A stretch of DNA of 64,000 bases from a virus. The translations under genes and the position numbers were made by a program. The notes below the pieces were generated by a model. That model was not told the origin of the DNA and searched no databases. It worked only from the letters and a program-made list of their open reading frames with translations. Shown piece by piece: positions 12,781 to 63,683 of the stretch. Location: the IMG/VR virus record IMGVR_UViG_3300047551_000431, positions 27,481-91,480 of that record. One strand, 5' to 3'. Position 1 is the first letter of the stretch. Each line of letters begins with the position of its first letter.

Positions 12781-12817
12781 CTGGCTAAGATAGTGATATT
12801 ATATAAGATACTAAAAT

Positions 12818-15800: not shown

Positions 15801-16822
15801 TTATCTACAGCATAATTAAATGTAGGATGAGTCGGTGCTTTTAAAATTTTACCAGTTTCAGGGTGTCTGCTGAATGCGTGGTAGTAACCATCTTCTTGAG
15901 TAGGTTGAGAATAATCAAATTCTTCCGGTCTACCGGATGCATCCCAATAACCTCTTATATCATACATGCTGTCATCAGCTCTTAAATTATCAGGAAGTGT
16001 TTGAAAAAACTTTTTAAATTGTTTTTCCTCTTCTGCAGATAATTTAGTTTTAAAATTACTACCACCTTCTTGATACTTCTTTTTTGTATTTTTAGGTACA
16101 AATACTGGTTGATTAGTAGATTCAGAAACTGCAAATCTATCTAAAGATTGTCTAGGAGTTTCTAATGGTTGATAATGATTTACTGGAGGTTCCAGTAATA
16201 TCTTGTTTAACTCTCTACCTACAGGAGTAGCTGATACTACACTCATTGCTGTTCCAATCGTTTGAGTGGCGCGATGTGGAATTAATTGTAATGTATTACC
16301 TACATATCCTATTGGGTTTTTATTTATAACATCACTTATTGCTCCTGCAGCAGATAATTGTCTACTTATAGATGGATTTAATGCTCCTATTGCTTCTAAC
16401 ATTAATTGATTTATATCCCATCCTTCATTATTTGCTTTTTCTAATGCTTCATTTATTGGAGTATTAGGATCATAATTTGGAGGAATATACCCTGATACTG
16501 ATAACATTGGAATACATCTTTTTTGTTCTTCGGACCAAATGTATCCAGTAGGACAAGAATTTACTTTACCTCCAGTTTCTTTTTTAATTTTACCCTTTTG
16601 ATACTTACCCATAGGTATCTCAGTAACATAATCACCTGGAAACGAATACTCTCCACCAGGCATCATTGTTTGTTTGTTACCTAGATTGTCTATACCAACT
16701 ATAGGGAACGGAACTTCTTTCATAGTAATCTGGTTACTAGGAATGATGTTCATGTCATTGTGTCTGTCTGGACTATCTGGTAAATATCCGGTCTTGGTAA
16801 TTTTTACTTTACGCTTCTTCAT
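12818..16822 (-). CDS. Three-domain murein hydrolase of the tail, 1334 aa
   Basis: A large virion-associated cell-wall enzyme. Domains by rough residue position: basic N-terminal tag (KRKVKITKTGYLP); a phage tail-lysin region with YDIRGYWDASGRP at about 290; a PG_binding_1 domain at about 415-458 (KDGVDGVWGPKTEKAYRDF); an NlpC/P60- or CHAP-like domain with candidate catalytic Cys in DDGTSCM (about 630) and His in TTHSGVV (about 754); and a lysozyme or lytic transglycosylase-like domain with GKESGF (about 894, likely catalytic Glu) and SSGPTQI (about 932). A 16-residue tag, GGIYxGxYEFKDGGLV, occurs near residues 385 and 1190. The C-terminus is GGSVRKVKIKSLPRK. It overlaps the muzzle gene by one base, which fits a tail-tip enzyme that opens the wall during entry. 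Enzyme activities are inferred from motifs. Confidence 0.82.
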   Translation of the reverse strand: MKKRKVKITKTGYLPDSPDRHNDMNIIPSNQITMKEVPFPIVGIDNLGNKQTMMPGGEYSFPGDYVTEIPMGKYQKGKIKKETGGKVNSCPTGYIWSEEQKRCIPMLSVSGYIPPNYDPNTPINEALEKANNEGWDINQLMLEAIGALNPSISRQLSAAGAISDVINKNPIGYVGNTLQLIPHRATQTIGTAMSVVSATPVGRELNKILLEPPVNHYQPLETPRQSLDRFAVSESTNQPVFVPKNTKKKYQEGGSNFKTKLSAEEEKQFKKFFQTLPDNLRADDSMYDIRGYWDASGRPEEFDYSQPTQEDGYYHAFSRHPETGKILKAPTHPTFNYAVDKTPLGDDTYVPLIGIDGNVYMRDLNWDSQQAFEEDTYKQGGIYLGKYEFKDGGLVKASEGIQTNFRRTNIDKSKVLSLQKELKNAGYDLGKSGKSKDGVDGVWGPKTEKAYRDFTNKKARTETSQDSTQTPIFSEEDSTVFNEQIADTSSTLHNKALDNSLPEQVQQKNIKVTDIPQYTQSGLAVDQGFQPLETEDKYAYEIKNPDYSIPADTLNPDQFYYGSKRGVIELPDGTKQAFMETVPSQSIMGEISDVPYNPIEAETQALTEGTVEKLDYVLQKNAPNLYRDDGTSCMINGKVEDRCAAGYQLGLDINFGDKLNRKDLGITGDSWEVGQNIIDKGGSRVYGLTNDLDITPTEYDNKGVKNLLESEKKKRKIDAQKITNDAQVGDVVEMWYKDSGSQEEALSNSKGNTLTTHSGVVTEKDGVKYVTHNIHGTWHTDKLQDVINGKRKYMASGIVRPNYKVDENALGVKVSDKPRYLKADDEERGLIHEGEKWSSKQGDNGAVIPAQSTEANNYVQGLAYYAPQVQQDFKLSDNETSEIMKLAFGVYGKESGFSHGDKYTSKRKNRKLTKLYKDIAPDWMFEGDEMSSGPTQIKVDTNFNTDKEKALLQKYGVDDKNIWDEKNAAAATLLETARNYERFKQAFGVGFDNMDPITMRNVLALAHNKGIDNVLKNEFTDISKAESRNLLERAYDYATTDTSWSESKLKGTKRRDYGSLKSGLGQYANLHKNAGSYANLVQDYSASLDVDYNKVKSNYWNTDAKQRADREHYDYTDWTDPSFVYDEAISPVVENVESVVREGTKYAGRGMRAADRKIERGLKALEKKTRGAVNKVKKKVRMQDGGIYMGTYEFKDGGLVRMQEGGDMPFGLPLKEQNIYLLPEYNQPINPETGEILPDPQRPNLGMDTGATEYKYTYGSDEGDIDVPSVVSGQYIGDQALDRYMLTGERFKTMNDPGSYSKFYDQIGQLGLMQEKNGGSVRKVKIKSLPRKNQ

Positions 16823-19800
16823 TATCTAGGAGAGTATTGATTCTTCACATTAGTTATCTTGAACAACATTTTGATTGGTCCTGATATATTACGATATAAC
16901 AAGACGTGAGTAGTATAGTGTCTAAACTTCTTTCTTTCAAATGCTGACTTCTGATAATCTAGGTTGTTTATATTTAGTTGCCTCTTGTAACCGTTTAGTT
17001 CGGTGCTCCATATGGATTGCTGAACATTAGGAAAGGTGAATTCTCCGCGATCTCTAGTTATATCCCAGAACTGATTCATTCTATATTTCTGTTCTTCTTT
17101 ACTATACAGAATATCAATACTAGTGGGATTAATTATAGGATACTGTAGCGCAGCTATTGGATTACCTTTCGGATTCAGATTTAGATTTAATACACCTGAT
17201 ACTTGTTCTGTATTGTGTACAACAGCATGATCAAAGTTAAAATCAAGCACATGATACATATCAATACCATCAACATCGTAAGTATAACACTCTAAATCAT
17301 ACTCTAATGACTTTAGTGTGTTTACTATCTGTCCTGTTGCAGCAATGTATTCAATTTCAAATGGGTAGTCAACACCATAGAAGTTAGAAAATAAATCTGT
17401 TCTATCGTTATGTCTCCAGATACCACCTTCACCAGCAGCATTAGTTTTAGTTGTCAAGAAATAATTTTTACTTGATACAGCTAACTCAGGATGCCAATCG
17501 TGGAAAGATATCCACATTTGATTTTTTGGATCATAACTAATAGTCCAACTACAATCTTCAAAGTATGCAGGATCACCAAGTTGAACTTCAATAGAATTAT
17601 TAACTAAGAAAGTATTATATCCTTTTTGAGGAGCATATACCACAGTATCTGTAATATCTCTTCTCTTTCTAAAATCTCGTTTAGAAAAATACAGTATCAT
17701 ATTACTATTATCAAATACTGATTGGCATCCAATACCCACAATAGGATTATCCGTATATATGTAATCAGGAAAATCTAAGGTAAGCTGATATGGTAAATAT
17801 TTATTAAACCACCAGCGCATACTTGCTGCTGATATTTCATCTAAACCTTGTCCGGTTACAGCAAAAACTTTACCCTGAGATTGACTAACATAAAAAGCAC
17901 CAACTGGAGTATTTGTAATAGACAATCTATTCTGACAAGATCCATGTTGGAACTCTGAGTCAGCATTAGTTAAGTACTGTAAAGGTTGTGAAAATAATCC
18001 ACCATCACCTATAGTTATCTTAGTACCAGCATCTGTTTGTAAAGTATCCACCCCTAAAAACTGCGCAGGTCCCTGTGTTTCAAATAGTATCAAAGCTCCA
18101 TTTTTAGAAATGGGTTTAACAGCTATTACTCTAGATGTAAAGTCTTTGTAATTATTTGGTAAGAATACTTGCCAAAAGTCATTGACTGCTTCATCTTGTT
18201 GTGGTAATGAATATATAATTCTATTAGGATAATATGTGTAACAAGTTTCTGCAACCATTGGGTTATAGTATCTTGCTTGCATTGATCCCCAAGATACAAA
18301 GTTGTTAAAGATTCTAGACACACTTAAAGATAAGTCATATTTAAAATAGTTACCAGATTTGATTACATCTGTTCCAAATAGTTCTTTTAAATTAGTAAAT
18401 CTATAAGGATCGTAATGTCTTTCAGCTATGCTATTTCCCCAGTCTCTTAAGTCTACATTAATTTCAGACTCTACAAAAAAGTCACGAACACCAGATTGAA
18501 ATAAGTAAAAGTATACATCTTTTTTAGATAACTTAAATGCACTACCTATAGCACTAAGACCCTGACCAAAAAATCCTTCACTATCTGTAAACGGATCAAG
18601 ATCTAAATTATGCATATCATTAGGTAGCGCATCAAATAATTGACCTATTTGAAATCCTACTATTGAGCTTATGAACTTACTTACAAATAAGTTTGTATCA
18701 AACTTTGTAAAATCTGCCCAGAATCTAGGATTAGATACCATACTTCTAAGTCTATAATCAAACTCAGTTCCATCAGGTTGATCCATCAACCAATCATAGA
18801 AATAGAAAAATGTATTCTTTTCTGTATATCTTCCTATATACACATCTCCTCCAAATACTATAGAAGAATCTGGCATTAAAACAGATGTGTCTGTAGAGGT
18901 ATTTGTGATGGGAACTTTAGTTACGCAACCTGTAGTAAGTTGTCTTATCGTAGGTAATTGTCCATACTGATTACGCAATCTTACTTTTAATCCAGCATAA
19001 TAACTATAGCTACTAGTTTGAAACTCTTCAAATCTTCTTTTTTCGTTTTGTAATCTAGGTTCAATATTTCTAGCAGTACTAAGAACTTGTGTTGAGTTAT
19101 CTATACCAACCGTAGCACTTATAGGATTCGAGGTATTTAATGTTACACAACGTCCTCTGAATATATTATTTATCGTAATATTTTCAAAGTTCTGAAGTTG
19201 ATTTTCTAAATACCCTGAAGCTTTTATATATCTTCTAGAATTACCTATAGTTAAAGCTCCTTTAGTGTGTCTTAATAAAGAACCGTGGGATATGTATTTT
19301 AAAGCATATTGTCTATACTTTGTAAACTTTAAAATTAAATCAATAAATCTATCGGTACCATCAACAACATAATTAATATACATAAACGCACCTGTAACAG
19401 CTCTGATTGCAGTTGGCATAGATCCAAATTCACTATACTCATAAGTAGTTACCTGAGTTGATCCTATACCACCTGTTGTAGGTGTTACTGTTGTAGCAGG
19501 TACTAAAAGAGCACTATCTGTACCTGTAAAACCCGCATCTAGATATATACTTAAAGCACTATCTCCAGCAGGGTTAAAAAGGGTTCCGATTACGTTAGCT
19601 AATGTCCATTCAGCTTGATCATATGCATTTTGTGCAAATGGTAAAGCTGCGTTATTAACAGCATTACCCGCCGAAATTATAGGACCGCTTACAGGACCAG
19701 CTATTAAACCAGATATACCAGCATTAAATATTTGTGCTGGTTTATATTCTTTTATTTCTTTACCTCTAATTGCTTGACTCGCTATAGAAATACCACCTAC

Positions 19801-21930
19801 TGCAGCTAGTACAAATGCTAAGTCTGTTGGTAATTTATGTTTAGGATGCTTATCAATAGGTTCAAAATTACCAGTAACATTATTAGGACTACCTACTTCT
19901 CCATATAATTTTAATTCTTGTGCAGAAAGAAAAGGATTTTTAAATTGTGTATCAGGAGAATGAAAGGTAAACAAACTATCTGAAACATTATTTAAAAAGT
20001 TGTTAGAGTCATTCCAACCTGAATCGTCTATCCATGATATAGATGTTAATGAAGGGTCGGGTTGTCTAGAATTATATGGGTAGTTTTGATAATAAATATT
20101 TTCATTATCTACGTTTCTATATGAACGCATGTTGTTAATGATACCCTTTGCTATGACAGTTTTGTTTCCTTCTCTAGAACTTCTTAAAATTTCATATCCC
20201 ACAATACCCGGTATTGCCATACCATAGTTATCAACAGGACATTTTATATTTTTAAATTGTACACCTAATACGCGAATAGCTACAGGTTTTAATCCATTAA
20301 CGCGAATTCTAGAAAAACCATCTACACCTGAAGGAAGATCTAATGATACATTTAGAACATCCGCAGGCATTTTGTGATGACGAATAGGTTTACCACAAAG
20401 ATCATAACTATCATTTCCAGGATCTGACCAACTGTGTGCTGACGCATTCCATATGTCAGGTCTATCATTAGGATAATTCTCAGTGGATTCCCAATACCCC
20501 ATTTTACCAGTAGCAATAACAGCACCACCAACAAATGGAGCAGATTCTTGTAAAGCCACACTGTTTGTATATGCAGTATTAATACTTTCCCAAATTGCAG
20601 GTGCTACATAAGGACCCCCTTGATCAAGATGTTGTTGATATTCTACGTTATCAAAAGTACCAGTTGCAAGTGATGCTATATCAGTACCATCAGGATTTAA
20701 TTCTCTTCCTATTTCTTTTGCTCTACCTGGAATATGATACGAACTTGATCTTTCTCCTGTGTTATATACCCATCTGATCCAGAATGCATATTGTTCATCG
20801 CGCATGTATCCTGTATCATTTCCTCCTCTCTTATAGTAATCAGGAGACTGTTCAACCATAACCCACTCAGTATTAATCTGATTAGCTAAAGGTTGATAGT
20901 TGAAATCAAATTTAGTACGGGGTCCTGTTCGTAGCATATACGGACCGTTCACATACAAACCATCTGACTTTTCATAAGCAGGTGATCTTAACGGAATTAC
21001 TTCAATAGGTACACTAGGTAAACTCTCATCTATGTAATCTATAGATATAGATACTGGTCCTTTTGTATTATATAATCCTATTCTTTTAGCGCTTGTTTGT
21101 TGATTAATAGTTCTTACAATGACTAATTCAAATTCATCAAATGTTTTTGAATCTAGATTTTTTATTGTAACTTCTAATGATCCTGATAAGTTATCATGAT
21201 CAAATAGTGCTTGAACTTCACTAGGTGTATAATAATCTGAATATCTCTGACCATTAATAGTATACGCTACCACAGCATAATAAGATCCATTTTGTAAAGC
21301 ACCGCCTGCCGCTCCTTTACTAATTGTAACACATGGTATAGTGATTAATTTAGCAAGTCTTATTTCTTCACAATCTAACTGATATGGTGGTTTAGGTTGA
21401 CAATCAACGCAATCTCTATCAGGATTAATGTCTTCACAAAAGTATGGTACACCCGGCCATGGTTGATCGAACGGTCCTAATCTAATATCACCAATGTTCA
21501 TGGTTCTGTCAGGATTTAAACCATCTATCCAATACAACTGATAAGAACAATCAAAGTTCTCTTTTGCTGTACCAATAATAAGATTTGACTTTTTAAAGTT
21601 TAGACAAGGATCGTTTACTACAGTAGTGTAAGTACACGAATCTTCTTTAAATAATCCAATTTCAGAATTTACATCATCAGTAGAGTATACTGCCCAATAG
21701 TCACTTGTAACTCGTACCTGACCGATAATAGTATATGGTGCATTTGTACACAACTTGTTTGCGGGTTCGTTACCAATGATACCTACGTCTCCACCAGCTG
21801 TATTATTTGTAGCATTGCGCGCATGCGACCACGTACCTTCTGGATAAAAGATATCATCAAAGTCTTTAATAAGACCTTTATTAAAGATTTCTGATTCTTG
21901 ACTATTCGCTGAATCTTGCTGCTTCGCCAT
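16822..21930 (-). CDS. Muzzle-type tail protein, 1702 aa
   Basis: The N-terminus (KGLIKDFDDIFYPEGTWSHARNATN) is the signature of the very large tail protein of crAss-like phages, called the muzzle in the phi-crAss001 structure, which closes the tail end below the ring proteins. The first 300 residues are Cys-rich and beta-rich (DCVDCQPKPPYQLDC). A Gly/Ala- and Ile-rich stretch near 730-790 could be buried or membrane-active. The C-terminal part is aromatic beta structure. The long size, its place directly after two ring-like genes and its one-base overlap with the tail hydrolase gene all agree. No enzyme motif is seen. Confidence 0.86.
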   Translation of the reverse strand: MAKQQDSANSQESEIFNKGLIKDFDDIFYPEGTWSHARNATNNTAGGDVGIIGNEPANKLCTNAPYTIIGQVRVTSDYWAVYSTDDVNSEIGLFKEDSCTYTTVVNDPCLNFKKSNLIIGTAKENFDCSYQLYWIDGLNPDRTMNIGDIRLGPFDQPWPGVPYFCEDINPDRDCVDCQPKPPYQLDCEEIRLAKLITIPCVTISKGAAGGALQNGSYYAVVAYTINGQRYSDYYTPSEVQALFDHDNLSGSLEVTIKNLDSKTFDEFELVIVRTINQQTSAKRIGLYNTKGPVSISIDYIDESLPSVPIEVIPLRSPAYEKSDGLYVNGPYMLRTGPRTKFDFNYQPLANQINTEWVMVEQSPDYYKRGGNDTGYMRDEQYAFWIRWVYNTGERSSSYHIPGRAKEIGRELNPDGTDIASLATGTFDNVEYQQHLDQGGPYVAPAIWESINTAYTNSVALQESAPFVGGAVIATGKMGYWESTENYPNDRPDIWNASAHSWSDPGNDSYDLCGKPIRHHKMPADVLNVSLDLPSGVDGFSRIRVNGLKPVAIRVLGVQFKNIKCPVDNYGMAIPGIVGYEILRSSREGNKTVIAKGIINNMRSYRNVDNENIYYQNYPYNSRQPDPSLTSISWIDDSGWNDSNNFLNNVSDSLFTFHSPDTQFKNPFLSAQELKLYGEVGSPNNVTGNFEPIDKHPKHKLPTDLAFVLAAVGGISIASQAIRGKEIKEYKPAQIFNAGISGLIAGPVSGPIISAGNAVNNAALPFAQNAYDQAEWTLANVIGTLFNPAGDSALSIYLDAGFTGTDSALLVPATTVTPTTGGIGSTQVTTYEYSEFGSMPTAIRAVTGAFMYINYVVDGTDRFIDLILKFTKYRQYALKYISHGSLLRHTKGALTIGNSRRYIKASGYLENQLQNFENITINNIFRGRCVTLNTSNPISATVGIDNSTQVLSTARNIEPRLQNEKRRFEEFQTSSYSYYAGLKVRLRNQYGQLPTIRQLTTGCVTKVPITNTSTDTSVLMPDSSIVFGGDVYIGRYTEKNTFFYFYDWLMDQPDGTEFDYRLRSMVSNPRFWADFTKFDTNLFVSKFISSIVGFQIGQLFDALPNDMHNLDLDPFTDSEGFFGQGLSAIGSAFKLSKKDVYFYLFQSGVRDFFVESEINVDLRDWGNSIAERHYDPYRFTNLKELFGTDVIKSGNYFKYDLSLSVSRIFNNFVSWGSMQARYYNPMVAETCYTYYPNRIIYSLPQQDEAVNDFWQVFLPNNYKDFTSRVIAVKPISKNGALILFETQGPAQFLGVDTLQTDAGTKITIGDGGLFSQPLQYLTNADSEFQHGSCQNRLSITNTPVGAFYVSQSQGKVFAVTGQGLDEISAASMRWWFNKYLPYQLTLDFPDYIYTDNPIVGIGCQSVFDNSNMILYFSKRDFRKRRDITDTVVYAPQKGYNTFLVNNSIEVQLGDPAYFEDCSWTISYDPKNQMWISFHDWHPELAVSSKNYFLTTKTNAAGEGGIWRHNDRTDLFSNFYGVDYPFEIEYIAATGQIVNTLKSLEYDLECYTYDVDGIDMYHVLDFNFDHAVVHNTEQVSGVLNLNLNPKGNPIAALQYPIINPTSIDILYSKEEQKYRMNQFWDITRDRGEFTFPNVQQSIWSTELNGYKRQLNINNLDYQKSAFERKKFRHYTTHVLLYRNISGPIKMLFKITNVKNQYSPR

Positions 21931-21931
21931 A

Positions 21932-22837
21932 TTAAACTACATTATTGATATTAAATTGTGTGGGACGACCTATAGATTTAAACATATCATAGTACTTAGA
22001 GTACATTGCTTTTCTATTCATCGCCCATACCTTTTGCATCTCAGAGAAGTTAGGTGTATTAACTATAGATAACGCATTGTTTCTAGCGGCACGTAACTCG
22101 GCGTTTACTAACTGAAACTGATTAGCAATTGTTGGATTACCATCCATCAACATATTTTCTAATATACGCTTCTTAAGCGCATACTCATAATATTCATTAA
22201 TCATTGGATGATCAGGAACTAGTAAGTTACCTTCAGCATCTTCCATATTACCTTGGTAGTTGATATATAGTTTTCCAGTTTCTAGATTTGTAAATATAAA
22301 CCCATCTTTGATATAACCTTCATCTTTACCTTTATAGTTTAAGTCTGCACAATCACAATTGATCATGTAAGCATTTTTAAATCTTAAAGGAGTAAGCATG
22401 TTATATGTACGAGTTTCTGTACCTATTACCTGTATGAGACTATATGTATTACCGCATTGTGTTAAGCATGTAGACTCAGGAGGTAACGTTGTTCCAGCAC
22501 ATGTTGTAGCTTCAACCCAAGGTTTGTAACTAGGTACAACTTCTTGAATATTAGTTCCTTGCGGAAGTGTTGTTGTAATACTGTATTCTCCACAAAGTAA
22601 TGCAAAGTTCATTACATGAAAGTTCTCAGGAAGACGTGTCCTATAGTGTTCTATTTCTAGAACCATTTCATTAGTCTTTTCTATGCGCAGACCTAAATCA
22701 TAGTTTACTTTCATTGCAATCTTAATTAACTGTGCTGGTTCAATAACACCGTCTGTTGCAATACTGCGTAAGTCTGTTCTTACATCTTCGAGTAAAGAAT
22801 CAAAACTTCTGTATTTGAGTGTATAATTATAATTCAT
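21932..22837 (-). CDS. Tail ring / connector protein, 301 aa
   Basis: Conserved crAss-like structural protein placed directly before the muzzle gene. It begins with helices (FDSLLEDVRTDLRSIATDG), followed by LPENFHVMNFALLCGEY at about 75-90, a Cys-containing beta middle and a C-terminal helical part (EYYEYALKKRILENMLMDG). In phi-crAss001 several ring proteins stack between portal and muzzle, and size, position and layout fit one of these. Which ring it is cannot be told from sequence alone. Two bases separate it from each neighbour. Confidence 0.72.
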   Translation of the reverse strand: MNYNYTLKYRSFDSLLEDVRTDLRSIATDGVIEPAQLIKIAMKVNYDLGLRIEKTNEMVLEIEHYRTRLPENFHVMNFALLCGEYSITTTLPQGTNIQEVVPSYKPWVEATTCAGTTLPPESTCLTQCGNTYSLIQVIGTETRTYNMLTPLRFKNAYMINCDCADLNYKGKDEGYIKDGFIFTNLETGKLYINYQGNMEDAEGNLLVPDHPMINEYYEYALKKRILENMLMDGNPTIANQFQLVNAELRAARNNALSIVNTPNFSEMQKVWAMNRKAMYSKYYDMFKSIGRPTQFNINNVV

Positions 22838-22839
22838 GA

Positions 22840-23508
22840 TTATGATCTAAGTAAACTTTGTTTGTCTGCAGGTGCCGGATCCGTATTTATCTGACTACTT
22901 CTTAAGAAGTCGTTGATTACTTGTTGTTCTATTTGTGCAAATAGATCAGCGGGTATATTTAAGTATTGACTTTGTACAGCTTGACATTCATCATCACAAG
23001 TTAATCCAGCTAAGGAACCTTCAAAGATTCCATCAATTTGAGCACTATCCCATTCAACATTAGGAATAAAAAGATAACCGTCTAATAACCAGTAATACTT
23101 TTTGTTATTATATTTGAATCCGGATGTTTTTTGTAATGACGTATATAACTGAGGAGTTGTTCTGAACGCTTCTACGGAACCATCTATAGATGCTACTGTT
23201 CTTAATAGCGGTCCATTAGATCCTTCTAAAATAGCAGGTAGTTTTTCTTTAGTACGTTTAATTTTTATTCCTGATTGCACTTCGCAACAAGCTGCAACTT
23301 TATCAACCTCTATAAGATCGACGCAAGGTATTCTTTTATACAAAGAGTTAAACTTTGCTTGACTGGTTTGACCATCCTGTCTTTTGATAAACATCTTAGC
23401 ATACTTAAGTATGTTACTGTAAATCAATCGATCAGTAATAAAAGAGTCAGCATCAACTGCTTTGATACCATTACGTACTCTTGATATTGCTTCAGCTATT
23501 GTATTCAT
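22840..23508 (-). CDS. Tail ring / connector protein, 222 aa
   Basis: Probable second ring protein. The N-terminal helix (AEAISRVRNGIKAVDADSF) leads into IYSNILKYAKMFIKRQDG. A beta-rich middle (FKYNNKKYYWLLDGYLFIPN at about 130-150) precedes a C-terminal helix. A helix-beta-helix plan of this kind is shared with the 235-residue gene at 32699-33406, and both resemble the small connector proteins of crAss-like tails. It ends two bases before the 301-residue ring gene and overlaps its upstream neighbour by one base. Confidence 0.68.
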   Translation of the reverse strand: MNTIAEAISRVRNGIKAVDADSFITDRLIYSNILKYAKMFIKRQDGQTSQAKFNSLYKRIPCVDLIEVDKVAACCEVQSGIKIKRTKEKLPAILEGSNGPLLRTVASIDGSVEAFRTTPQLYTSLQKTSGFKYNNKKYYWLLDGYLFIPNVEWDSAQIDGIFEGSLAGLTCDDECQAVQSQYLNIPADLFAQIEQQVINDFLRSSQINTDPAPADKQSLLRS

Positions 23509-39254: not shown

Positions 39255-39287
39255 AAAGTTGGTTTAGCTTTACATTAATAATATACA

Positions 39288-39295
39288 CAAAATTA
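39288..39295 (-). promoter_or_regulatory. Possible -7 promoter box (TAATTTTG)
   Basis: TAATTTTG on the minus strand, 33 bases before the scaffold ATG, in the 102-base gap between portal and scaffold genes. It fits TAnnTTTG, but the gap is so AT-rich that chance is possible. Confidence 0.4.
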
Positions 39296-58606: not shown

Positions 58607-58639
58607 ATACTATAATATACAAAAGTACAACTGATTATT

Positions 58640-58647: not shown

Positions 58648-58672
58648 AAAGGTTTTTTCGGGTACACTAGAT

Positions 58673-58759
58673 AACGTCTGATATATCATTCAAAGAATAC
58701 TCCCTATAGGGTATAATGTCCGTTATATCATACAAAACTATACCCTTATGGGTACTATA
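58673..58759. repeat. Two tandem 22-base boxes, each with a CCC-N4-GGG hairpin
   Basis: Unit one (58673-58714) and unit two (58715-58759) begin with matching 22-base boxes, AAyGTCyGwTATATCATwCA then AA (18 of 22 identical), with a period of 42 bases. Each is followed by a hairpin: CCC-TATA-GGG at 58702-58711 and ACCC-TTAT-GGGT at 58742-58753. Candidate operator, polymerase site or origin iterons. Confidence 0.7.
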
Positions 58760-58774
58760 AGAAACATTATCCCC

Positions 58775-58933
58775 CGGGTACTTCTGGTAGTTAGCGTACC
58801 CCCGTATGTAACGGCGGACGAATTACTGTACGGGAGGGGGTGTGATACGGCTGTGAAAAGTATATGTGGAAGGGGGTGTGAAGGGGGGTTACTGCAACCG
58901 ACCCCGGCGCGTGTCGAGTTAGGGGGTACCCCC
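58775..58933. repeat. GC-rich island with G-runs and palindrome
   Basis: A roughly 160-base stretch that is far more GC-rich than the rest of the window. It contains GGGAGGGGGTGTGA and GGAAGGGGGTGTGA (35 bases apart), then GGGGGG, and the perfect palindrome GGGGGTACCCCC at 58922-58933. Runs of G on one strand could form quadruplexes. No gene is supported here. Confidence 0.65.
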
Positions 58934-58937
58934 CGTG

Positions 58938-58949
58938 AAAAACCCTAAT
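58938..58949 (+). promoter_or_regulatory. Early box 1 (AAAAACCCTAAT)
   Basis: Exact consensus, 15 bases before the ATG of the 75-residue gene. Copy 1 of 11; no other sequence is shared by all early genes except an AC-rich stretch just before the ATG. Confidence 0.8.
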
Positions 58950-58964
58950 GATCTTAATAACACT

Positions 58965-59192
58965 ATGCAACAAGAACCAAAATGCCAGTGCTGCAAAAGC
59001 ACAATGTCTGTAGGTTTCGTGGAAACCTACATTCCCTGCTACGACGACGGCGGATCAATCGATTCATTCGACGTTGACGTCGAACGCGTCGAAATCTGTA
59101 CTAATCCTGACTGCGATTACAGTATTAATACCGCGGAACGCAGCGGCATCCGCGCAACGCACTGCGATTGCGACGATGATCTCCCTTTCTAG
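58965..59192 (+). CDS. Cys-rich mini-protein ending in SSB-like DDDLPF, 75 aa
   Basis: First early gene. The cysteines lie in CQCC at 7-10, in CTNPDC near 46-51 and in THCDCDDD near the end, so one zinc site is likely. The last residues are DDDLPF, the sequence of the SSB C-terminal tip that docks many DNA-repair and replication proteins. The ATG at 58965 is chosen because a GTG start at 58935 would put the box inside the gene. Its end overlaps a hairpin. It is a paralogue in layout of the next gene. Binding to host SSB partners is inference. Confidence 0.7.
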   Translation: MQQEPKCQCCKSTMSVGFVETYIPCYDDGGSIDSFDVDVERVEICTNPDCDYSINTAERSGIRATHCDCDDDLPF

Positions 59193-59217
59193 GGAGGTCA
59201 TCACCCCTTCGGGGTGA
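59181..59217 (+). terminator. Double hairpin at end of early gene 1
   Basis: CTCCCT at 59181-59186 pairs with AGGGAG at 59191-59196, with the stop TAG starting in the loop; CACCCC then pairs with GGGGTG around a TTC(G) loop at 59202-59216. No strong U-tract, so attenuator or RNA-end structure is also possible. Confidence 0.55.
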
Positions 59218-59222
59218 ACAGG

Positions 59223-59234
59223 AAAAACCCTAAT
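59223..59234 (+). promoter_or_regulatory. Early box 2 (AAAAACCCTAAT)
   Basis: Exact consensus, 17 bases before the ATG of the 62-residue gene and directly after the second hairpin of cassette 1. Confidence 0.8.
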
Positions 59235-59251
59235 TGATAAAATACACACAT

Positions 59252-59440
59252 ATGGAAAAAATGTTGAAATGCACCTGCGGGTGCACAGAATGGACCACAA
59301 CTGTGGTGCCGTTCCTAACGGGATACTGTCCCGAAACTGTTGATGTCGACTATGCAGACATAGACGTCTGCGCTTCTTGTGGTAAAGAAGCGTATCTGGT
59401 CAGCTGTGTAGATGATGAAGATGATGATCTCCCCTTTTAG
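59252..59440 (+). CDS. Cys-rich mini-protein ending in DDEDDDLPF, 62 aa
   Basis: Second member of the pair. Cysteines lie in CTCGC at 7-11 and CASCG near 40, a zinc-ribbon-like pattern, followed by VSCVDDEDDDLPF. The tail again equals the SSB docking tip. Apart from cysteines and tail it is little like its neighbour, so the two have diverged or converged on the tail. Start chosen at the ATG 17 bases after the box. Codons for LPF and the stop form the hairpin's left arm. Confidence 0.7.
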   Translation: MEKMLKCTCGCTEWTTTVVPFLTGYCPETVDVDYADIDVCASCGKEAYLVSCVDDEDDDLPF

Positions 59441-59444
59441 GGGG
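59431..59444 (+). terminator. Hairpin around stop of early gene 2
   Basis: CCCC at 59431-59434 pairs with GGGG at 59441-59444; the loop TTTTAG contains the stop TAG. Flanking ATGATGAT and ATTATCAT can extend the stem. Confidence 0.5.
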
Positions 59445-59463
59445 GTTCATTATCATCAATGTG

Positions 59464-59475
59464 AAAAACCCTATT
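59464..59475 (+). promoter_or_regulatory. Early box 3 (AAAAACCCTATT)
   Basis: One mismatch to the consensus, 20 bases before the ATG of the 72-residue membrane protein. Confidence 0.7.
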
Positions 59476-59495
59476 AAATATAATACATAACACAT

Positions 59496-59714
59496 ATGAA
59501 AAAATTAGCAATTGAAATCGCATCGTTTATAGGATGCATTGTCACTCTTCACTGGTTGGGAGTAATCGTTTTTAGTCTTGTGACTCCGTTTAGAATTACT
59601 CAAATGACTGGGTCATTTGTCTACTCGTTTGTTAGTATATTCTTTTGCGTGCTTATCACGCTTGGAATATTTGCTGACTTGAGTGACAAGAAATACTTTG
59701 ATCGCTTCGAGTGA
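59496..59714 (+). CDS. Two-helix membrane protein, 72 aa
   Basis: Two hydrophobic spans, about 5-29 (IEIASFIGCIVTLHWLGVIV) and 40-62 (SFVYSFVSIFFCVLITLGIF), with a short basic N-terminus and a charged tail (DLSDKKYFDRFE). A small inner-membrane protein of an early cassette; superinfection or host-takeover roles are guesses. The stop lies in the palindrome AGTGATCACT. Confidence 0.68.
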   Translation: MKKLAIEIASFIGCIVTLHWLGVIVFSLVTPFRITQMTGSFVYSFVSIFFCVLITLGIFADLSDKKYFDRFE

Positions 59715-59738
59715 TCACTTGTGTGTAGTGTGGTGAGA

Positions 59739-59763
59739 GGGGACTTCGGTCCCCTTTTATTTT
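59739..59763 (+). terminator. Terminator of early gene 3
   Basis: GGGGAC-TTCG-GTCCCC, with a stable UUCG tetraloop, followed by TTTTATTTT. Confidence 0.9.
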
Positions 59764-59771
59764 ACTACTAT

Positions 59772-59783
59772 AAAAACCCTAAT
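59772..59783 (+). promoter_or_regulatory. Early box 4 (AAAAACCCTAAT)
   Basis: Exact consensus, 18 bases before the ATG of the 52-residue gene. Confidence 0.8.
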
Positions 59784-59801
59784 AAAACCAATCTCTACAC
59801 T

Positions 59802-59960
59802 ATGGAACACAAATTTGAATTTGAAACATTTGATCTTGGTGAGATCCCTAAGATGCAAGCGAAACTGAATCAGTGGATAACTATCGGGAAACTAATTGAT
59901 CATAAGATCATTGTGTTATCCGAAAGAAAACTGCTGGTTCAATACAGAGTGCACAAATAG
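59802..59960 (+). CDS. Small protein, 52 aa
   Basis: Begins MEHKFEFETFDLGEIPKMQA and ends QYRVHK. A short alpha/beta protein with no known family. A frame from 59721 would include the terminator and box, so the ATG after the box is used. Its stop is in a terminator loop. Confidence 0.62.
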   Translation: MEHKFEFETFDLGEIPKMQAKLNQWITIGKLIDHKIIVLSERKLLVQYRVHK

Positions 59961-59977
59961 TGCACTTTGTTTTCTTT
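59948..59977 (+). terminator. Terminator with stop codon in loop (gene 4)
   Basis: AGTGCAC pairs with GTGCACT around AAATA, so the stop TAG spans loop and right arm. A U-rich run (TTTGTTTTCTTTT) follows. Confidence 0.82.
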
Positions 59978-59980
59978 TCT

Positions 59981-59992
59981 AAAAACCCTAAT
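59981..59992 (+). promoter_or_regulatory. Early box 5 (AAAAACCCTAAT)
   Basis: Exact consensus, 18 bases before the ATG of the 51-residue gene. Confidence 0.8.
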
Positions 59993-60010
59993 AACGGCAA
60001 TCTATATACT

Positions 60011-60166
60011 ATGAAAGATAAAATCACAATCACAGAAGATTACGCTATTAGCGTAAACCGCGATGTCCAAGACATCATAAAAGAGAAGATCAATGAGGGA
60101 TACTTCATTGTAAACAGTTACTCACATCCTGCGGTGGGAATGTGTTACGTAATGATCCCTGCATAG
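60011..60166 (+). CDS. Small protein, 51 aa
   Basis: Sequence MKDKITITEDYAISVNRDVQ, then IIKEKINEGYFIVNSYSHPA. It resembles gene 4 in plan (a strand, a helix with INEGY or LNQWI, then strands), so both may be small DUF1737-like proteins, a family with EKVNEGW-type helices. Low certainty. The stop is in a hairpin loop. Confidence 0.62.
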   Translation: MKDKITITEDYAISVNRDVQDIIKEKINEGYFIVNSYSHPAVGMCYVMIPA

Positions 60167-60180
60167 CGGGGATACATTAC
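60149..60180 (+). terminator. Hairpin with stop codon in loop (gene 5)
   Basis: GTAATG-ATCCC pairs with GGGAT-CATTAC, one base bulged, around a loop containing the stop TAG. It abuts box 6 with no U-tract other than the A/T-rich flank, so terminator function is less sure. Confidence 0.6.
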
Positions 60181-60181
60181 A

Positions 60182-60193
60182 AAAAACCCTAAT
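60182..60193 (+). promoter_or_regulatory. Early box 6 (AAAAACCCTAAT)
   Basis: Exact consensus, 17 bases before the ATG at 60211. Confidence 0.8.
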
Positions 60194-60210
60194 GATTTTA
60201 ACACATACAT

Positions 60211-60360
60211 ATGAACGAAGTTCAAGATGCTCGTAAAGAGTTAATGGACACCATCATCAAAATGATGAAGAGTGCCGAAGAGAAACAAATTCCACTCGCA
60301 GAGATGCGTGAAATGTTCGAAGAAATTCGAAAAGTGTGGGACCAAAAGATACCCCTATAA
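60211..60360 (+). CDS. Helical mini-protein, 49 aa
   Basis: ATG at 60211 and TAA at 60358-60360 give a wholly helical, charged protein (RKELMDTIIKMMKSAEEKQI, then PLAEMREMFEEIRKVWDQ). The gene is short, but it sits in a complete cassette with box and terminator, which supports it strongly. Met- and Glu-rich, like the next gene; function unknown. Confidence 0.7.
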   Translation: MNEVQDARKELMDTIIKMMKSAEEKQIPLAEMREMFEEIRKVWDQKIPL

Positions 60361-60377
60361 GGGGTGTCTTTTCTTTT
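60344..60377 (+). terminator. Terminator with stop codon in loop (gene 6)
   Basis: A 12-pair stem (AAAAGATACCCC with GGGGTGTCTTTT) encloses TATAA, which contains the stop TAA. The U-run TTTTCTTTT overlaps its right arm. Confidence 0.9.
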
Positions 60378-60380
60378 GTC

Positions 60381-60390
60381 AAACCCTAAT
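60381..60390 (+). promoter_or_regulatory. Early box 7 (AAACCCTAAT)
   Basis: Core consensus with two fewer leading A, 15 bases before the ATG of the 64-residue gene. Confidence 0.75.
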
Positions 60391-60405
60391 AATACCAATA
60401 CATAT

Positions 60406-60600
60406 ATGCAAGAAAATCATTTATCACCCGCAGAGCGTGCGGATGTACTTCGCAACATCAATATGAAGATGATGTTGCTATTCGGTAAACAAATCACCGA
60501 AGAGATGTACAACGAGTTTCACGAAATGTCCGACAGCGGACTATTCGGCGTGTCACTCTCGTACTCGATGATGTTGATGCAAAAGAGAAGAGAGTGTTAA
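60406..60600 (+). CDS. Small Met-rich helical protein, 64 aa
   Basis: Sequence LSPAERADVLRNINMKMMLL, then ITEEMYNEFHEMSDSGLFGV. Helical, with nine methionines. Similar in style to gene 6. Start taken after the box rather than at 60364. The final residues KRREC and stop form part of the terminator stem. Confidence 0.65.
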   Translation: MQENHLSPAERADVLRNINMKMMLLFGKQITEEMYNEFHEMSDSGLFGVSLSYSMMLMQKRREC

Positions 60601-60616
60601 CGCACTCTTTTCTTTC
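60584..60616 (+). terminator. Terminator with stop codon in loop (gene 7)
   Basis: AGAGTG pairs with CACTCT around TTAACG, which contains the stop TAA. Outer AAGAGA/TTTTCTTT pairs may extend it and supply the U-run. Confidence 0.85.
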
Positions 60617-60623
60617 CACTTGT

Positions 60624-60635
60624 AAAAACCCTAAT
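60624..60635 (+). promoter_or_regulatory. Early box 8 (AAAAACCCTAAT)
   Basis: Exact consensus, 16 bases before the ATG at 60652. Confidence 0.8.
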
Positions 60636-60651
60636 GAAACAAACACACATT

Positions 60652-60864
60652 ATGGAATATTTAAAAGCAAGACACGACACATTACAGCGGTCGTTAGTTC
60701 GTATCGTCAAGACAATTGAGAGAAAAATTGAGTATCTCGAAAAAGGGAAACCTGTTTCAGAGTTTGCCGACAGAAACGAAATGTTAACGAAACTCAAACA
60801 AGACATTGTTCATTACCGTGGTGTATTACACGGTGTAGAATGCTGTCAAAAATTGTTTTATTAA
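60652..60864 (+). CDS. Basic coiled-coil protein, 70 aa
   Basis: Helical and basic (LKARHDTLQRSLVRIVKTIE, then RKIEYLEKGKPVSEFADRNE). No known family. An in-frame ATG overlaps the box at 60634; the ATG at 60652 fits the cassette spacing. Ends directly before a UUCG terminator. Confidence 0.68.
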   Translation: MEYLKARHDTLQRSLVRIVKTIERKIEYLEKGKPVSEFADRNEMLTKLKQDIVHYRGVLHGVECCQKLFY

Positions 60865-60886
60865 AACCCCTTCGGGGGTTTTATTC
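60863..60886 (+). terminator. Terminator of early gene 8
   Basis: AAAACCCC-TTCG-GGGGTTTT, with UUCG loop and ATT after. The stop TAA overlaps the left arm. Confidence 0.88.
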
Positions 60887-60895
60887 ACACTAATT

Positions 60896-60907
60896 AAAAA
60901 CCCTAAT
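60896..60907 (+). promoter_or_regulatory. Early box 9 (AAAAACCCTAAT)
   Basis: Exact consensus, 17 bases before the ATG at 60925. Confidence 0.8.
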
Positions 60908-60924
60908 GATTCTAATTATACACT

Positions 60925-61230
60925 ATGGAAAACAACCAACCCATTCTTTCCTGCGCGGGAAGGGACGCAGTGTCAATTGACTCTGCTTTATTGCAACAGT
61001 TGTTGCAATCATTTAGACCAAACCTCATCGGTGTTCAACATCGGGCAATGCAAATTAATAGCATAATGTTCGATATTACTAATGGTGAGTTTGGTGATAA
61101 ATCCTTGAAAATATTCAAGGATACTATAACAGAAGAGTTTCTGTTTATCCAATTAATGGAAGCGTCTCGTCTTGCGAGAACGGTTTCTGCGGAATCGTTG
61201 TGTGACGCTGATGAACCGGATAACCATTAA
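60925..61230 (+). CDS. Small acidic helical protein, 101 aa
   Basis: Begins MENNQPILSCAGRDAVSIDS and contains LLQQLLQSFRPNLIGVQHRA, then a helical middle and an acidic tail (ESLCDADEPDNH). No recognised domain. It is followed by the strongest terminator of the early array. Confidence 0.65.
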   Translation: MENNQPILSCAGRDAVSIDSALLQQLLQSFRPNLIGVQHRAMQINSIMFDITNGEFGDKSLKIFKDTITEEFLFIQLMEASRLARTVSAESLCDADEPDNH

Positions 61231-61247
61231 CTCCGACAAATTGAAAA

Positions 61248-61286
61248 CGGCACCTTGTGGAAACACAGGGTGCTTTTTTTCTTTTA
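61248..61286 (+). terminator. Strong terminator after early gene 9
   Basis: GCACCTTGTG pairs with CACAGGGTGC around a GAAA tetraloop, followed by TTTTTTTCTTTT. Confidence 0.93.
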
Positions 61287-61378
61287 AAGTGCGATTTGTC
61301 CATCGGTGAAACACCCGTAAAATAAGGAAAAACCGTTTTTCAGTGCGGTGATAACACCGTCCTCGTGCTACTACTCGG
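61287..61378 (+). other. Structured gap between early genes 9 and 10
   Basis: No ORF of note. It contains CGGTG-AAA-CACCCG and CGGTG-ATAA-CACCG hairpins and a degenerate box (GGAAAAACCG at 61325). Possibly a decayed cassette or a small RNA. Confidence 0.4.
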
Positions 61379-61390
61379 AAAAACCCTAAT
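61379..61390 (+). promoter_or_regulatory. Early box 10 (AAAAACCCTAAT)
   Basis: Exact consensus, 19 bases before the ATG at 61410. Confidence 0.8.
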
Positions 61391-61409
61391 GAACTTAATT
61401 CTATACACT

Positions 61410-61682
61410 ATGAATAATATCATAAACGAGATGATTGCTACGGGAGTAGCGACGCTCACAGAGAAAATCGCGTTCTACGAGAAAACAATTAAGGAATCTG
61501 AAACAGGATTAATTAAGAAAGTACTCGGCGAACCTACGGACAACTATACGATTGAATCACACCTAAAAGGTTTGGTGACAATGCGTGGTATGGTTGTAGA
61601 ATTGCACCGTGCTCTTGCGGAACTGCAACCGAAATCCGTAAAGAGTCTAAAGCGCGCAAAGCGTGGAAGACCTCGCAAATAG
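61410..61682 (+). CDS. Coiled-coil protein with C-terminal AT-hook, 90 aa
   Basis: The body is a helical coiled coil (ATLTEKIAFYEKTIKESETG, then SHLKGLVTMRGMVVELHRAL). The C-terminus is KSLKRAKRGRPRK, in which RGRP is the AT-hook core that binds the minor groove of AT-rich DNA. This suggests an early DNA-binding protein, perhaps acting on the AT-rich host or phage genome. The ATG after the box is used, not 61365. Confidence 0.72.
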   Translation: MNNIINEMIATGVATLTEKIAFYEKTIKESETGLIKKVLGEPTDNYTIESHLKGLVTMRGMVVELHRALAELQPKSVKSLKRAKRGRPRK

Positions 61683-61687
61683 TGTGT

Positions 61688-61708
61688 AGCACCCTGTAAC
61701 GGGGTGCT
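61688..61708 (+). terminator. Hairpin after early gene 10
   Basis: AGCACCC pairs with GGGTGCT around TGTAACG. No U-run follows, so termination is weaker or it is a processing or stability element. Confidence 0.55.
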
Positions 61709-61723
61709 CACTCTACCTCAATT

Positions 61724-61735
61724 AAAAACCCTAAT
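61724..61735 (+). promoter_or_regulatory. Early box 11 (AAAAACCCTAAT)
   Basis: Exact consensus, but only 8 bases before the ATG at 61744, shorter than in the other cassettes. Confidence 0.75.
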
Positions 61736-61743
61736 TACTTGCT

Positions 61744-62217
61744 ATGTTTAAATTAAAGTTCAAAAACGAGCGTGTTGTGCGGGATGCACAGGGCGTTCAA
61801 AGTAAGCGTTACTACTACAAGGTAACGGGTATGTCACCTGAACAAGTCGAACAGTATCGTCTTGATTTGGGTACCGACGACGAAGGAAAAGATTGGGCTG
61901 TCATTGAAGACGGTGTTCCAATTTATCGCAGTGAAAAGCGTTTGGGTGAGATTGCTGTTATCAAACGCAGTATGAATCCAAACAAGACCACCAATCGTCA
62001 CTCGTGGTACGCAAAGTGCAATCGCGAAATCTTAACAGATTTGTTAAGCGAGAACAGTGCTATTGGTTCCACGGGATTTGCGCAATTTGCGTATCAGGAC
62101 TTTTTGGAACAATCCAAAGTCTTAATGCGTGAGATGATTGCAAAGGGTACTGTTGGTGAGTCGGAGACGGAGTCCGAGAAGGAAACCGAGAGTGAGAAGA
62201 GTGTGGACGATTTGTAA
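61744..62217 (+). CDS. Possible ssDNA-binding-like protein with acidic tail, 157 aa
   Basis: An N-terminal beta-rich domain (FKLKFKNERVVRDAQGVQSK, then RYYYKVTGMSPEQVEQYRLD) is followed by a basic stretch and a highly acidic Ser/Glu tail (SETESEKETESEKSVDDL). This domain-plus-acidic-tail plan is typical of phage single-strand DNA-binding proteins. It shares the VDDL end and a YYYKVTG/YYVVDAT region with the 162-residue gene. Function is inference; no OB-fold signature is certain. Confidence 0.6.
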   Translation: MFKLKFKNERVVRDAQGVQSKRYYYKVTGMSPEQVEQYRLDLGTDDEGKDWAVIEDGVPIYRSEKRLGEIAVIKRSMNPNKTTNRHSWYAKCNREILTDLLSENSAIGSTGFAQFAYQDFLEQSKVLMREMIAKGTVGESETESEKETESEKSVDDL

Positions 62218-62251
62218 AAGTGAGAGCGCCCCTTCGGGGGTGCTCACTTTT
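62216..62251 (+). terminator. Terminator of early gene 11
   Basis: AAAGTGAG plus CGCCCC pairs with GGGGTG plus CTCACTTT, one bulged base, UUCG loop, then TTTT. The stop TAA overlaps the left arm. Confidence 0.9.
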
Positions 62252-62294: not shown

Positions 62295-62303
62295 GACCCT
62301 AAT
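62295..62303 (+). promoter_or_regulatory. Degenerate early box (GACCCTAAT)
   Basis: Keeps CCCTAAT but not the A-run, and is followed by no ORF but by an RNA-like fold. It may drive a non-coding RNA. Confidence 0.5.
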
Positions 62304-62317
62304 GGTTTGTGTGGTGT

Positions 62318-62436
62318 GACGAGCATACCGACTATAAGAGAGTTGTAAGGTTGCAGTGTTGGAATAGTACTACTCTGATAGTTAGTTAGTTAGCAAGCTA
62401 GCGTTGCGGGTTGGTTGGTTGTGGTGCTCGTTTTTT
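62318..62436 (+). ncRNA. Candidate structured RNA, three-way junction
   Basis: ACGAGCA at 62319-62325 pairs with TGCTCGT at 62425-62431, followed by TTTTTT. Inside, ACTAT/ATAGT plus AGAGT/ACTCT close one arm (62331-62382) and GCAA/TTGC another (62393-62407). A degenerate early box lies 15 bases upstream. No ORF. Existence as an RNA is inference. Confidence 0.55.
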
Positions 62437-62466
62437 GTGTGGTGTGTTTTGTTTGGAAATAGTTTT

Positions 62467-62473
62467 CCCTAAT
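62467..62473 (+). promoter_or_regulatory. Early core (CCCTAAT) upstream of 162-residue gene
   Basis: The preceding bases are TTTT rather than AAAA. It lies 75 bases before the ATG, with hairpin CTTGT-GC-GTGTC-TAGAC-GATAC-TGT-ACAAG in between. Promoter role is uncertain. Confidence 0.4.
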
Positions 62474-62548: not shown

Positions 62549-63037
62549 ATGAAAGCAGTACAGATTAAAGGTCAAGAAATGTACCGTAAGAAAGGTACAG
62601 GTAACGTAGTATGGAAGTACTATGTAGTAGATGCAACCGCAGAAGAGTTGGATGCACTAAAAGCGATTAAGGGTGACTACTATCGCGAAACTTCCGAACC
62701 CGTTATGTATAACGGAAAGTTAATTACGTGTCCTCTATTGTTCGAAAACAATTGGGAAGGTGACGTCATTGACTACAATGTCACCGCTAACAACCGTCTT
62801 GTAATAGATAAGTTGGCAATGTTGAAAGCAGAAAGCATTATGAAGAGTGTCGGTGACGATACTTTGAAGGTTGCGATCGCTAACAAGATTGCAAACGAGT
62901 CTATCGGCGACTTGTTTCAGCGTAGAAGTAGTACCAGTGTAGGTGGTGCAATAGGTAAAACCGAGACTAAAACAGAAGGTTCTGCGACAGAAAACGTAGA
63001 AACTCCTGAACCAGCCGACAATGTTGACGACTTGTAA
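62549..63037 (+). CDS. Possible ssDNA-binding-like protein, 162 aa
   Basis: Begins MKAVQIKGQEMYRKKGTGNV and VWKYYVVDATAEELDALKAI, a region similar in plan to the 157-residue gene. The C-terminus is a Thr/Glu-rich flexible tail ending NVDDL. It is set apart from the compact cassettes by its long leader and by a 24-bp hairpin after its stop. It may be an SSB-type or recombination protein. No family is certain. Confidence 0.6.
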   Translation: MKAVQIKGQEMYRKKGTGNVVWKYYVVDATAEELDALKAIKGDYYRETSEPVMYNGKLITCPLLFENNWEGDVIDYNVTANNRLVIDKLAMLKAESIMKSVGDDTLKVAIANKIANESIGDLFQRRSSTSVGGAIGKTETKTEGSATENVETPEPADNVDDL

Positions 63038-63178: not shown

Positions 63179-63328
63179 ATGGTTACCTACTACCTCATAC
63201 ACACAGTTACTCGTAAAGTGTTATTTGAGACTCATTGTTCTACTCTTCTCTCTGCTTATATAGAACAGAAGGTAGAGATGCATATGATTCCCCGCGTTTC
63301 TGTAATCATCGACGACTCAACTGATTGA
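63179..63328 (+). CDS. Small protein, 49 aa
   Basis: ATG at 63179-63181 and TGA at 63326-63328 encode VTYYLIHTVTRKVLFETHCS, then AYIEQKVEMHMIPRVSVIID. Beta-helix-beta plan. No early box is present; the upstream bases are AT-rich. No known family. Flanked by long hairpins, so translation is plausible but not certain. Confidence 0.5.
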   Translation: MVTYYLIHTVTRKVLFETHCSTLLSAYIEQKVEMHMIPRVSVIIDDSTD

Positions 63329-63340
63329 TTACCAACATAT

Positions 63341-63408
63341 TAGTCCCAGCAGAGTGTTTTTAATTAAACATAGTGTATAGTTTCGGTTTCTATACTCTGT
63401 TGGGACTA
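63341..63408 (+). ncRNA. Candidate structured RNA A, three-way junction
   Basis: TAGTCCCAGCAGAGT at 63341-63355 pairs with the segment at 63394-63408 over 15 bases (one G-U). Inside are TGTTT/AAACA and GTATAG/CTATAC arms, the latter with a TTTCGGTTT loop. It could instead serve as terminator of the 49-residue gene, but the internal arms are unusual for one. Confidence 0.55.
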
Positions 63409-63415
63409 TCTTTCT

Positions 63416-63502
63416 TGAATTCCCGTAAACCCTCACAACGGTGAGATAATTAACCTAAATAATAACATAGGTATGGTTTGTATCAAATTCTACGGGAATT
63501 CA
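63416..63502 (+). ncRNA. Candidate structured RNA B, cloverleaf-like
   Basis: A 12-bp closing stem (GAATTCCCGTA region with TACGGGAATTC) encloses three arms: CTCAC/GTGAG, ACCTA/TAGGT and GTTTG/CAAAT. This has tRNA-like topology but no T-loop TTCRA, no proper anticodon loop and a 12-bp, not 7-bp, acceptor. A tRNA mimic or other RNA is possible. Confidence 0.55.
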
Positions 63503-63526
63503 TTCATATTGCTATATACTTGTAGC

Positions 63527-63683
63527 AAGAAAGTAAGTAATTGTAGTGTACACGCAGCCTGATAAATAGACACAATGCTGTTGAATAATCGGTAAAACTG
63601 GTGTAAGATGAAATAGGTTATGTACATAAGTGCACATTGTGTACTGTAAAACACGCAGTTCCTATCACTACAATTGCTTTCTT
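63527..63683 (+). ncRNA. Candidate structured RNA C
   Basis: AATTGTAGTG at 63539-63548 pairs with CACTACAATT at 63666-63675, extended by AAGAAAG with CTTTCTT. Inside are GTACA/TGTAC with GTGCAC, and CGGTAAAACT, which recurs in element D. Confidence 0.5.

Follow-up and report, generated by a model that had tools for sequence, protein, structure and literature searches.

The virion RNA polymerase (vRNAP) of phage N4 reads early promoters and requires a promoter hairpin at a fixed distance. Within the Crassvirales, the vRNAP of phage phi14:2 carries rifampicin-resistant early transcription, according to a review (PMC10136315). The nearest known case of a vRNAP-associated early motif comes from the Thermus phage P23-45, in which a motif before the pre-early genes accompanies the vRNAP and is absent from relatives that lack this polymerase (PMC10770324). 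Here we describe a short, 12-letter box, AAAAACCCTAAT, that precedes each of eleven presumptive early genes of an uncultured crAss-like phage (G000 in our genome comparisons). These genes lie in a stretch of 64,000 nt, referred to below as the window, which covers bases 27481-91480 of a virus record of 91,480 bases (IMG/VR record IMGVR_UViG_3300047551_000431). The data indicate that the box is very probably a compact early promoter, and probably one that belongs to the phage's own vRNAP.

Distribution and architecture of the box

The box stands before all 11 genes from 58965 to 62217, on the plus strand in every case, with nine exact copies, one that reads CCCTATT and one with a short A-run. 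This inventory, first proposed in the original prediction, was confirmed by motif counts against shuffled sequences. Plus-strand copies within one mismatch of AAAAACCCTAAT number ten at 58938-61735, the eleventh box being TCAAACCCTAAT at 60379-60390, and the observed count of 11, which takes in one off-target copy at 5971 on the opposite strand, compares with a chance expectation of 0.67 (sd 0.99, maximum 4 over 100 shuffles). Across the whole 91,480-bp record, AAAACCCTAAT occurs nine times in the forward and never in the reverse direction, a reversed control gave no hits, and no copy was found outside the early region on either strand; a search of the rest of the genome, which had been suggested as a check, thus places the word in the early region alone. 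The commonest 10-mer within 45 nt upstream of the early open reading frame (ORF) starts is shared by 10 of the 11 genes, compared with at most 3 of 11 in 1000 shuffled upstream sets; one chance 10-mer lies upstream of late gene 27161, within the end of the preceding coding sequence. An oriented element that is found once per early unit and not before late genes is the pattern looked for in a virion-RNAP promoter.

When the upstream regions are aligned on the box, the consensus becomes AAAAACCCTAAT-N-A-N4-AA(T/C), about 21 bp long: the AAT of the box is followed by one free base, an A (10/11), four free bases and AA (10/11), after which T or C is usual. Scored with a 21-column matrix derived from the boxes, G000 has 11 sites that reach 18 bits or more. 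Ten are true boxes, and the other is an off-target site at record 33442 on the minus strand, inside a late gene; the box at 61724 scores 17.1 bits. The box lies 15-20 nt from the ATG in ten genes and, in the last gene, 8 nt from it; the alignment of all 11 genes also bears out the predicted spacing and the AC-rich, G-poor tail upstream of the ATG. Conservation is sharpest in the box-anchored alignment, with the downstream AA fixed, and blurs in the ATG-anchored one; the parts of the element thus keep their spacing to each other, not to the start codon. The AA(T/C) at a fixed 6 nt downstream of the box is suggestive of a candidate transcription start. On this reading each gene would have its own early phage promoter, some 21 bp long with the box as its core, and transcription would most likely start a few bases 3' of the box, near the conserved AA(T/C), to give a very short, G-poor leader.

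It had been suggested that the box could instead be an mRNA leader or translation signal, one that favours early mRNAs on Bacteroidota ribosomes without Shine-Dalgarno pairing. The box is A-rich and near the ATG, A-rich leaders matter in Flavobacterium (PMC6847099), and one relative (G011) carries AAAAACCCTAAA 4-8 nt upstream of a few ATGs, a word that we tried as a substitute box and took to be an A-rich leader. A translation signal would, however, be expected at a fixed distance from the start codon, whereas here the gap varies between 8 and 20 nt, the register of the box and the AA after it being kept; most of the box also lies beyond the -3 to -15 zone, and the box is missing before the phage's own late genes. 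In addition, two related boxes on the plus strand lie in conserved non-coding DNA far from the next gene start: AAATAG-TCCGA-CCCTAAT (62296-62303), about 245 nt before gene 62549, with its core kept in the sister phage discussed below, where it reads GTAAACCCTAAT, and AAATAG-TTTT-CCCTAAT-NG (62467-62473), 75 nt before the same gene and likewise kept. The two share the context AAATAG-N4/5-CCCTAAT-N-G. The variable gap and these non-coding copies weaken the translational explanation, which we regard as improbable. About 130 nt 3' of the first variant box, a T6 run (62431-62436) follows GGTGCTCG and could mark the end of a short early RNA; the fold of non-coding 62296-62445 is no better than that of shuffles.

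Hairpins at the ends of the early genes

A strong hairpin (z < -2) is present at or just past the stop codon in 9/11 early genes, and the remaining two have terminator-like hairpins farther 3'. Such strong stop-codon hairpins were found at only 2/56 late-strand ORFs (Mann-Whitney p 3.5e-6 against the early genes). T-tracts of intrinsic-terminator type follow some of the early-gene hairpins, and in most units 6-16 nt separate the end of the hairpin from the next box. Because the hairpins close the early genes before the next box, the early region can be described as a row of units, each made up of box, short leader, small gene and hairpin; every early gene, preceded by a box and closed by a hairpin, looks like its own on/off unit. 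Transcription would end at the hairpin closing each gene, yielding single-gene units. In contrast to N4, where the hairpin is part of the promoter, the hairpins here lie at varying distances from the box and overlap stop codons. They therefore look like 3' ends, and we reject an N4-type hairpin promoter. No Rfam family above gathering score and no tRNA was found in the region.

The same alternation of hairpin and box might be expected if the early genes shared one long transcript in which the box served for RNA processing or as an mRNA end and the 3' hairpins shielded the resulting fragments; T-tracts are indeed missing from some hairpins. Yet the first gene, too, has a box, straight after non-coding DNA, several hairpins carry terminator-type T-tracts, and the AA(T/C) conserved 3' of the box would fit a site of initiation, leaving processing with a small share of the probability.

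The units, all on the plus strand, are arranged as follows. Box 1 (58938-58949) precedes gene 58965 (75 aa), whose 3' hairpins lie at 59175-59215 (z -3.7), the first overlapping the stop codon; box 2 (59223-59234) precedes gene 59252 (62 aa), with a hairpin at 59426-59447 that also overlaps the stop codon. Box 3 (59464-59475, the CCCTATT variant) serves gene 59496 (72 aa), which has a terminator-like hairpin at 59732-59761 with a T-rich tract after the stem, and box 4 (59772-59783) is followed by gene 59802 (52 aa) and a terminator-like hairpin at 59944-59970. The 3' hairpin of gene 60011 (51 aa; box 5, 59981-59992) lies at 60149-60180 (z -6.0) and abuts the next box. Terminator-like hairpins also follow gene 60211 (49 aa; box 6, 60182-60193; hairpin 60344-60372), gene 60406 (64 aa; box 7, the TCAAACCCTAAT copy; hairpin 60584-60615) and gene 60652 (70 aa; box 8, 60624-60635; hairpin 60862-60883). 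Gene 60925 (101 aa; box 9, 60896-60907) has a terminator at 61249-61274, formed by a stem and then a T run; gene 61410 (90 aa; box 10, 61379-61390) a hairpin at 61688-61708 (z -5.7); and gene 61744 (157 aa; box 11, 61724-61735), the one with 8 nt to its ATG, a hairpin at 62224-62245.

A C-terminal DDLPF, like the tip of bacterial single-stranded DNA-binding protein, is present in the first two early proteins (codons 59175-59192 and 59426-59440), and the same or nearly the same ends are found in the sister phage; since the DDLPF codons sit in the 3' hairpin, selection could be acting on the tip or on the hairpin. The 157-aa (61744-62217) and 162-aa (62549-63037) early proteins share 23-25% identity and a common VDDL end. 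They may be distant paralogues, and neither has a Pfam or PHROG match.

Conservation in a sister phage and in other relatives

When all of IMG/VR was scanned for the extended box, 74 contigs matched, of which 73 had a single match and one, IMGVR_UViG_3300046820_000486 (G001), had five. Among 84,980 prokaryote genomes no contig with a cluster was found, one Borreliella contig having two matches, so that G001 is the only contig with more than two copies in either collection. In G001, whose major capsid protein (MCP), TerL and tail proteins are 97%, 95% and 48-74% identical to those of this phage, seven exact boxes lie upstream of seven orthologues of the window's early genes. The four early genes that G001 lacks are absent together with their boxes (boxes 4, 5, 6 and 8). 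Box 1 is identical at 12/12 positions, box 3 reads CCCTAAT in G001, and box 7 has the full A-run there. Overall, the boxes are identical at 81/84 positions (96%), compared with 190/315 (60%) for the upstream 40 nt, 74% for the leaders, 1169/1779 (66%) for the coding sequence of the early orthologues and 227/370 (61%) for third positions of identical codons. The gap between 96% in the box and 60-74% in the surrounding DNA argues that the box is under selection of its own.

This comparison also bears on chance or duplication, that is, on the idea that the genes are recent tandem copies that brought the box along. The genes are small and adjacent, as such copies might be, but the early proteins do not resemble copies of each other (the pair aligned, of 157 and 162 aa, is 23-25% identical), the spacers differ between genes, and conservation of the box well above that of neighbouring DNA contradicts recent copying; we consider this origin extremely unlikely.

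Checking related genomes, as the original prediction had advised, gave a clear yes for G001 and no comparable box in the other relatives examined. AAAACCCTAAT was absent from the contigs of all relatives found through MCP (0/26), and word enrichment in relatives and cultured phages returned merely weaker A-rich or paralogue-linked words, together with tRNA words in Lbo-JY46. The box was likewise not found in six relatives (G003, G005, G007, G011, G016 and G021) with an MCP 83-86% identical and a vRNAP just 26-29% identical to that of this phage, a strikingly fast divergence of the polymerase among these six. Since their polymerases are so different, the specificity of the box may turn over, and its absence is compatible with promoters that turn over together with a fast-evolving polymerase. 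A more distant relative, G028, shares the upstream intergenic DNA and an adjacent late protein of 150 aa (41% identical); an extension using its own candidate sequence returned just G028 and single-copy matches.

Elsewhere in the comparison with G001, non-coding 63320-63530 is 95.6% identical over 206 nt, against about 66% for the early genes. Within it lie a long hairpin at 63341-63411 (z -6.9) and, at 63416-63502, a four-way fold that resembles a cloverleaf (z -4.3); searches of this stretch returned no tRNA, no Rfam family above gathering score and no phage match. We regard it as a candidate structured RNA or replication element.

The predicted virion polymerase and the host-type late elements

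Outside the window, an ORF of 3,514 aa (record 12506-23050, minus strand) matches the phi14:2 RNAP (PDB 6VR4, E 4e-23), and its GGDFDIDK aligns with the catalytic GSDFDIDK of 6VR4, which carries the DFDxD motif. TerL and portal match those of crAss-like phages at 22-27% identity, mostly across 80-94% of the query. That the phage encodes a crAss-like virion polymerase, as the original prediction had assumed, is supported by the match of this ORF. The reader of the box would most likely be this giant virion RNAP, the homologue of phi14:2 RNAP, injected with the DNA. The claim that the box is a vRNAP promoter divides accordingly: its promoter half is well supported by the orientation, the presence of one copy per gene, the hairpins, the conservation and the lack of the box in late genes, while recognition by the vRNAP is something we infer.

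The late genes present a different picture. TAnnTTTG, the form in which the sigma-ABfr promoter of Bacteroidota (TTTG/TAnnTTTG) is recognised at -7, is absent from the 100 nt upstream of the early genes (0/11), as had been noted, and from the plus strand of 58821-62230; it occurs at 8/56 minus-strand ORFs, a contrast that alone is not significant. TAnnTTTG precedes several late genes, and late elements of TTTTGTRTAT type are conserved in G001. Among the late elements are TACTTTTG-TATATTA (58613-58624, minus strand), which contains TAnnTTTG and lies before the first late gene 58606, and TAATTTTG-TGTATAT (39281-39292, minus strand) before gene 39254, both of which resemble the host consensus (PMC6847099). 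Sigma-70-like sites in the early region are as numerous as in shuffles. The late genes would instead be served by host-type TAnnTTTG elements, an arrangement that, with an early box for the phage polymerase, fits phi14:2-style early transcription.

The box could alternatively be a promoter or activator site for the host RNAP acting with a phage- or virion-borne factor. All of the promoter evidence is neutral on which polymerase is involved. Moreover, GGGTAC-type elements recur in the intergenic DNA at the boundary between late and early genes (58660-58937), where a palindrome, GGGGGTACCCCC, immediately precedes box 1; both are conserved in G001 and G028. Against a host polymerase, no TAnnTTTG lies between hairpin and ATG, and the 6-16 nt between hairpin and box leave little space for a host -33/-7 promoter, so that a -33 element has no room in most units. 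The box is asymmetric and always directed into the gene, unlike a typical dimeric operator; no regulator-type domain was found among the ten early proteins scanned, and none of the bacterial genomes searched holds a cluster of boxes. We thus consider a host polymerase unlikely, though less so than the translational or processing alternatives.

Several observations count against a vRNAP promoter. Word searches of 12 other relatives and seven cultured phages, some of them sampled in part, turned up no comparably strong box, and G028 has none at its single visible gene start; absence in relatives equally means that the claim stands on two genomes. In G001 the vRNAP gene falls beyond the contig that carries the boxes. 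The variant CCCTAAT boxes at 62296 and 62467 lack the A-run, and some early-gene hairpins lack a T-tract. Finally, no box precedes the middle genes, which lie at the record's left end, although transcription by the phi14:2 vRNAP reportedly extends to replication genes (PMC10136315).

Compared with phi14:2, this phage has a homologous giant polymerase with DFDxD and early genes divergent from the late block, but no box of comparable strength was found before the phi14:2 genes. As in P23-45, the motif is repeated before presumptive early genes, and there it is limited to phages with that vRNAP; P23-45 differs in its AT-rich motif and polymerase architecture, and in being documented by start sites and ChIP-seq where the present case draws on sequence (PMC10770324). 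In the literature searched, which did not include the primary phi14:2 paper (Drobysheva 2021), no promoter is named for a crAss-like virion polymerase. New relative to these cases are the sequence of the box, the arrangement by which every gene has its own copy and closes with a hairpin, and the proposed link to a crAss-type polymerase. The chances seem to us about even that the box represents a class of promoter for crAss-type vRNAPs, a compact double-stranded element that would be read by the polymerase alone, would stand at every early gene together with a terminator and would be replaced lineage by lineage as the polymerase diverges. The 21-bp candidate, with its 18 natural copies, offers a template set with which site-specific initiation by these polymerases could be examined, and the early region provides an unusual example of a phage that apparently switches on its early genes singly.

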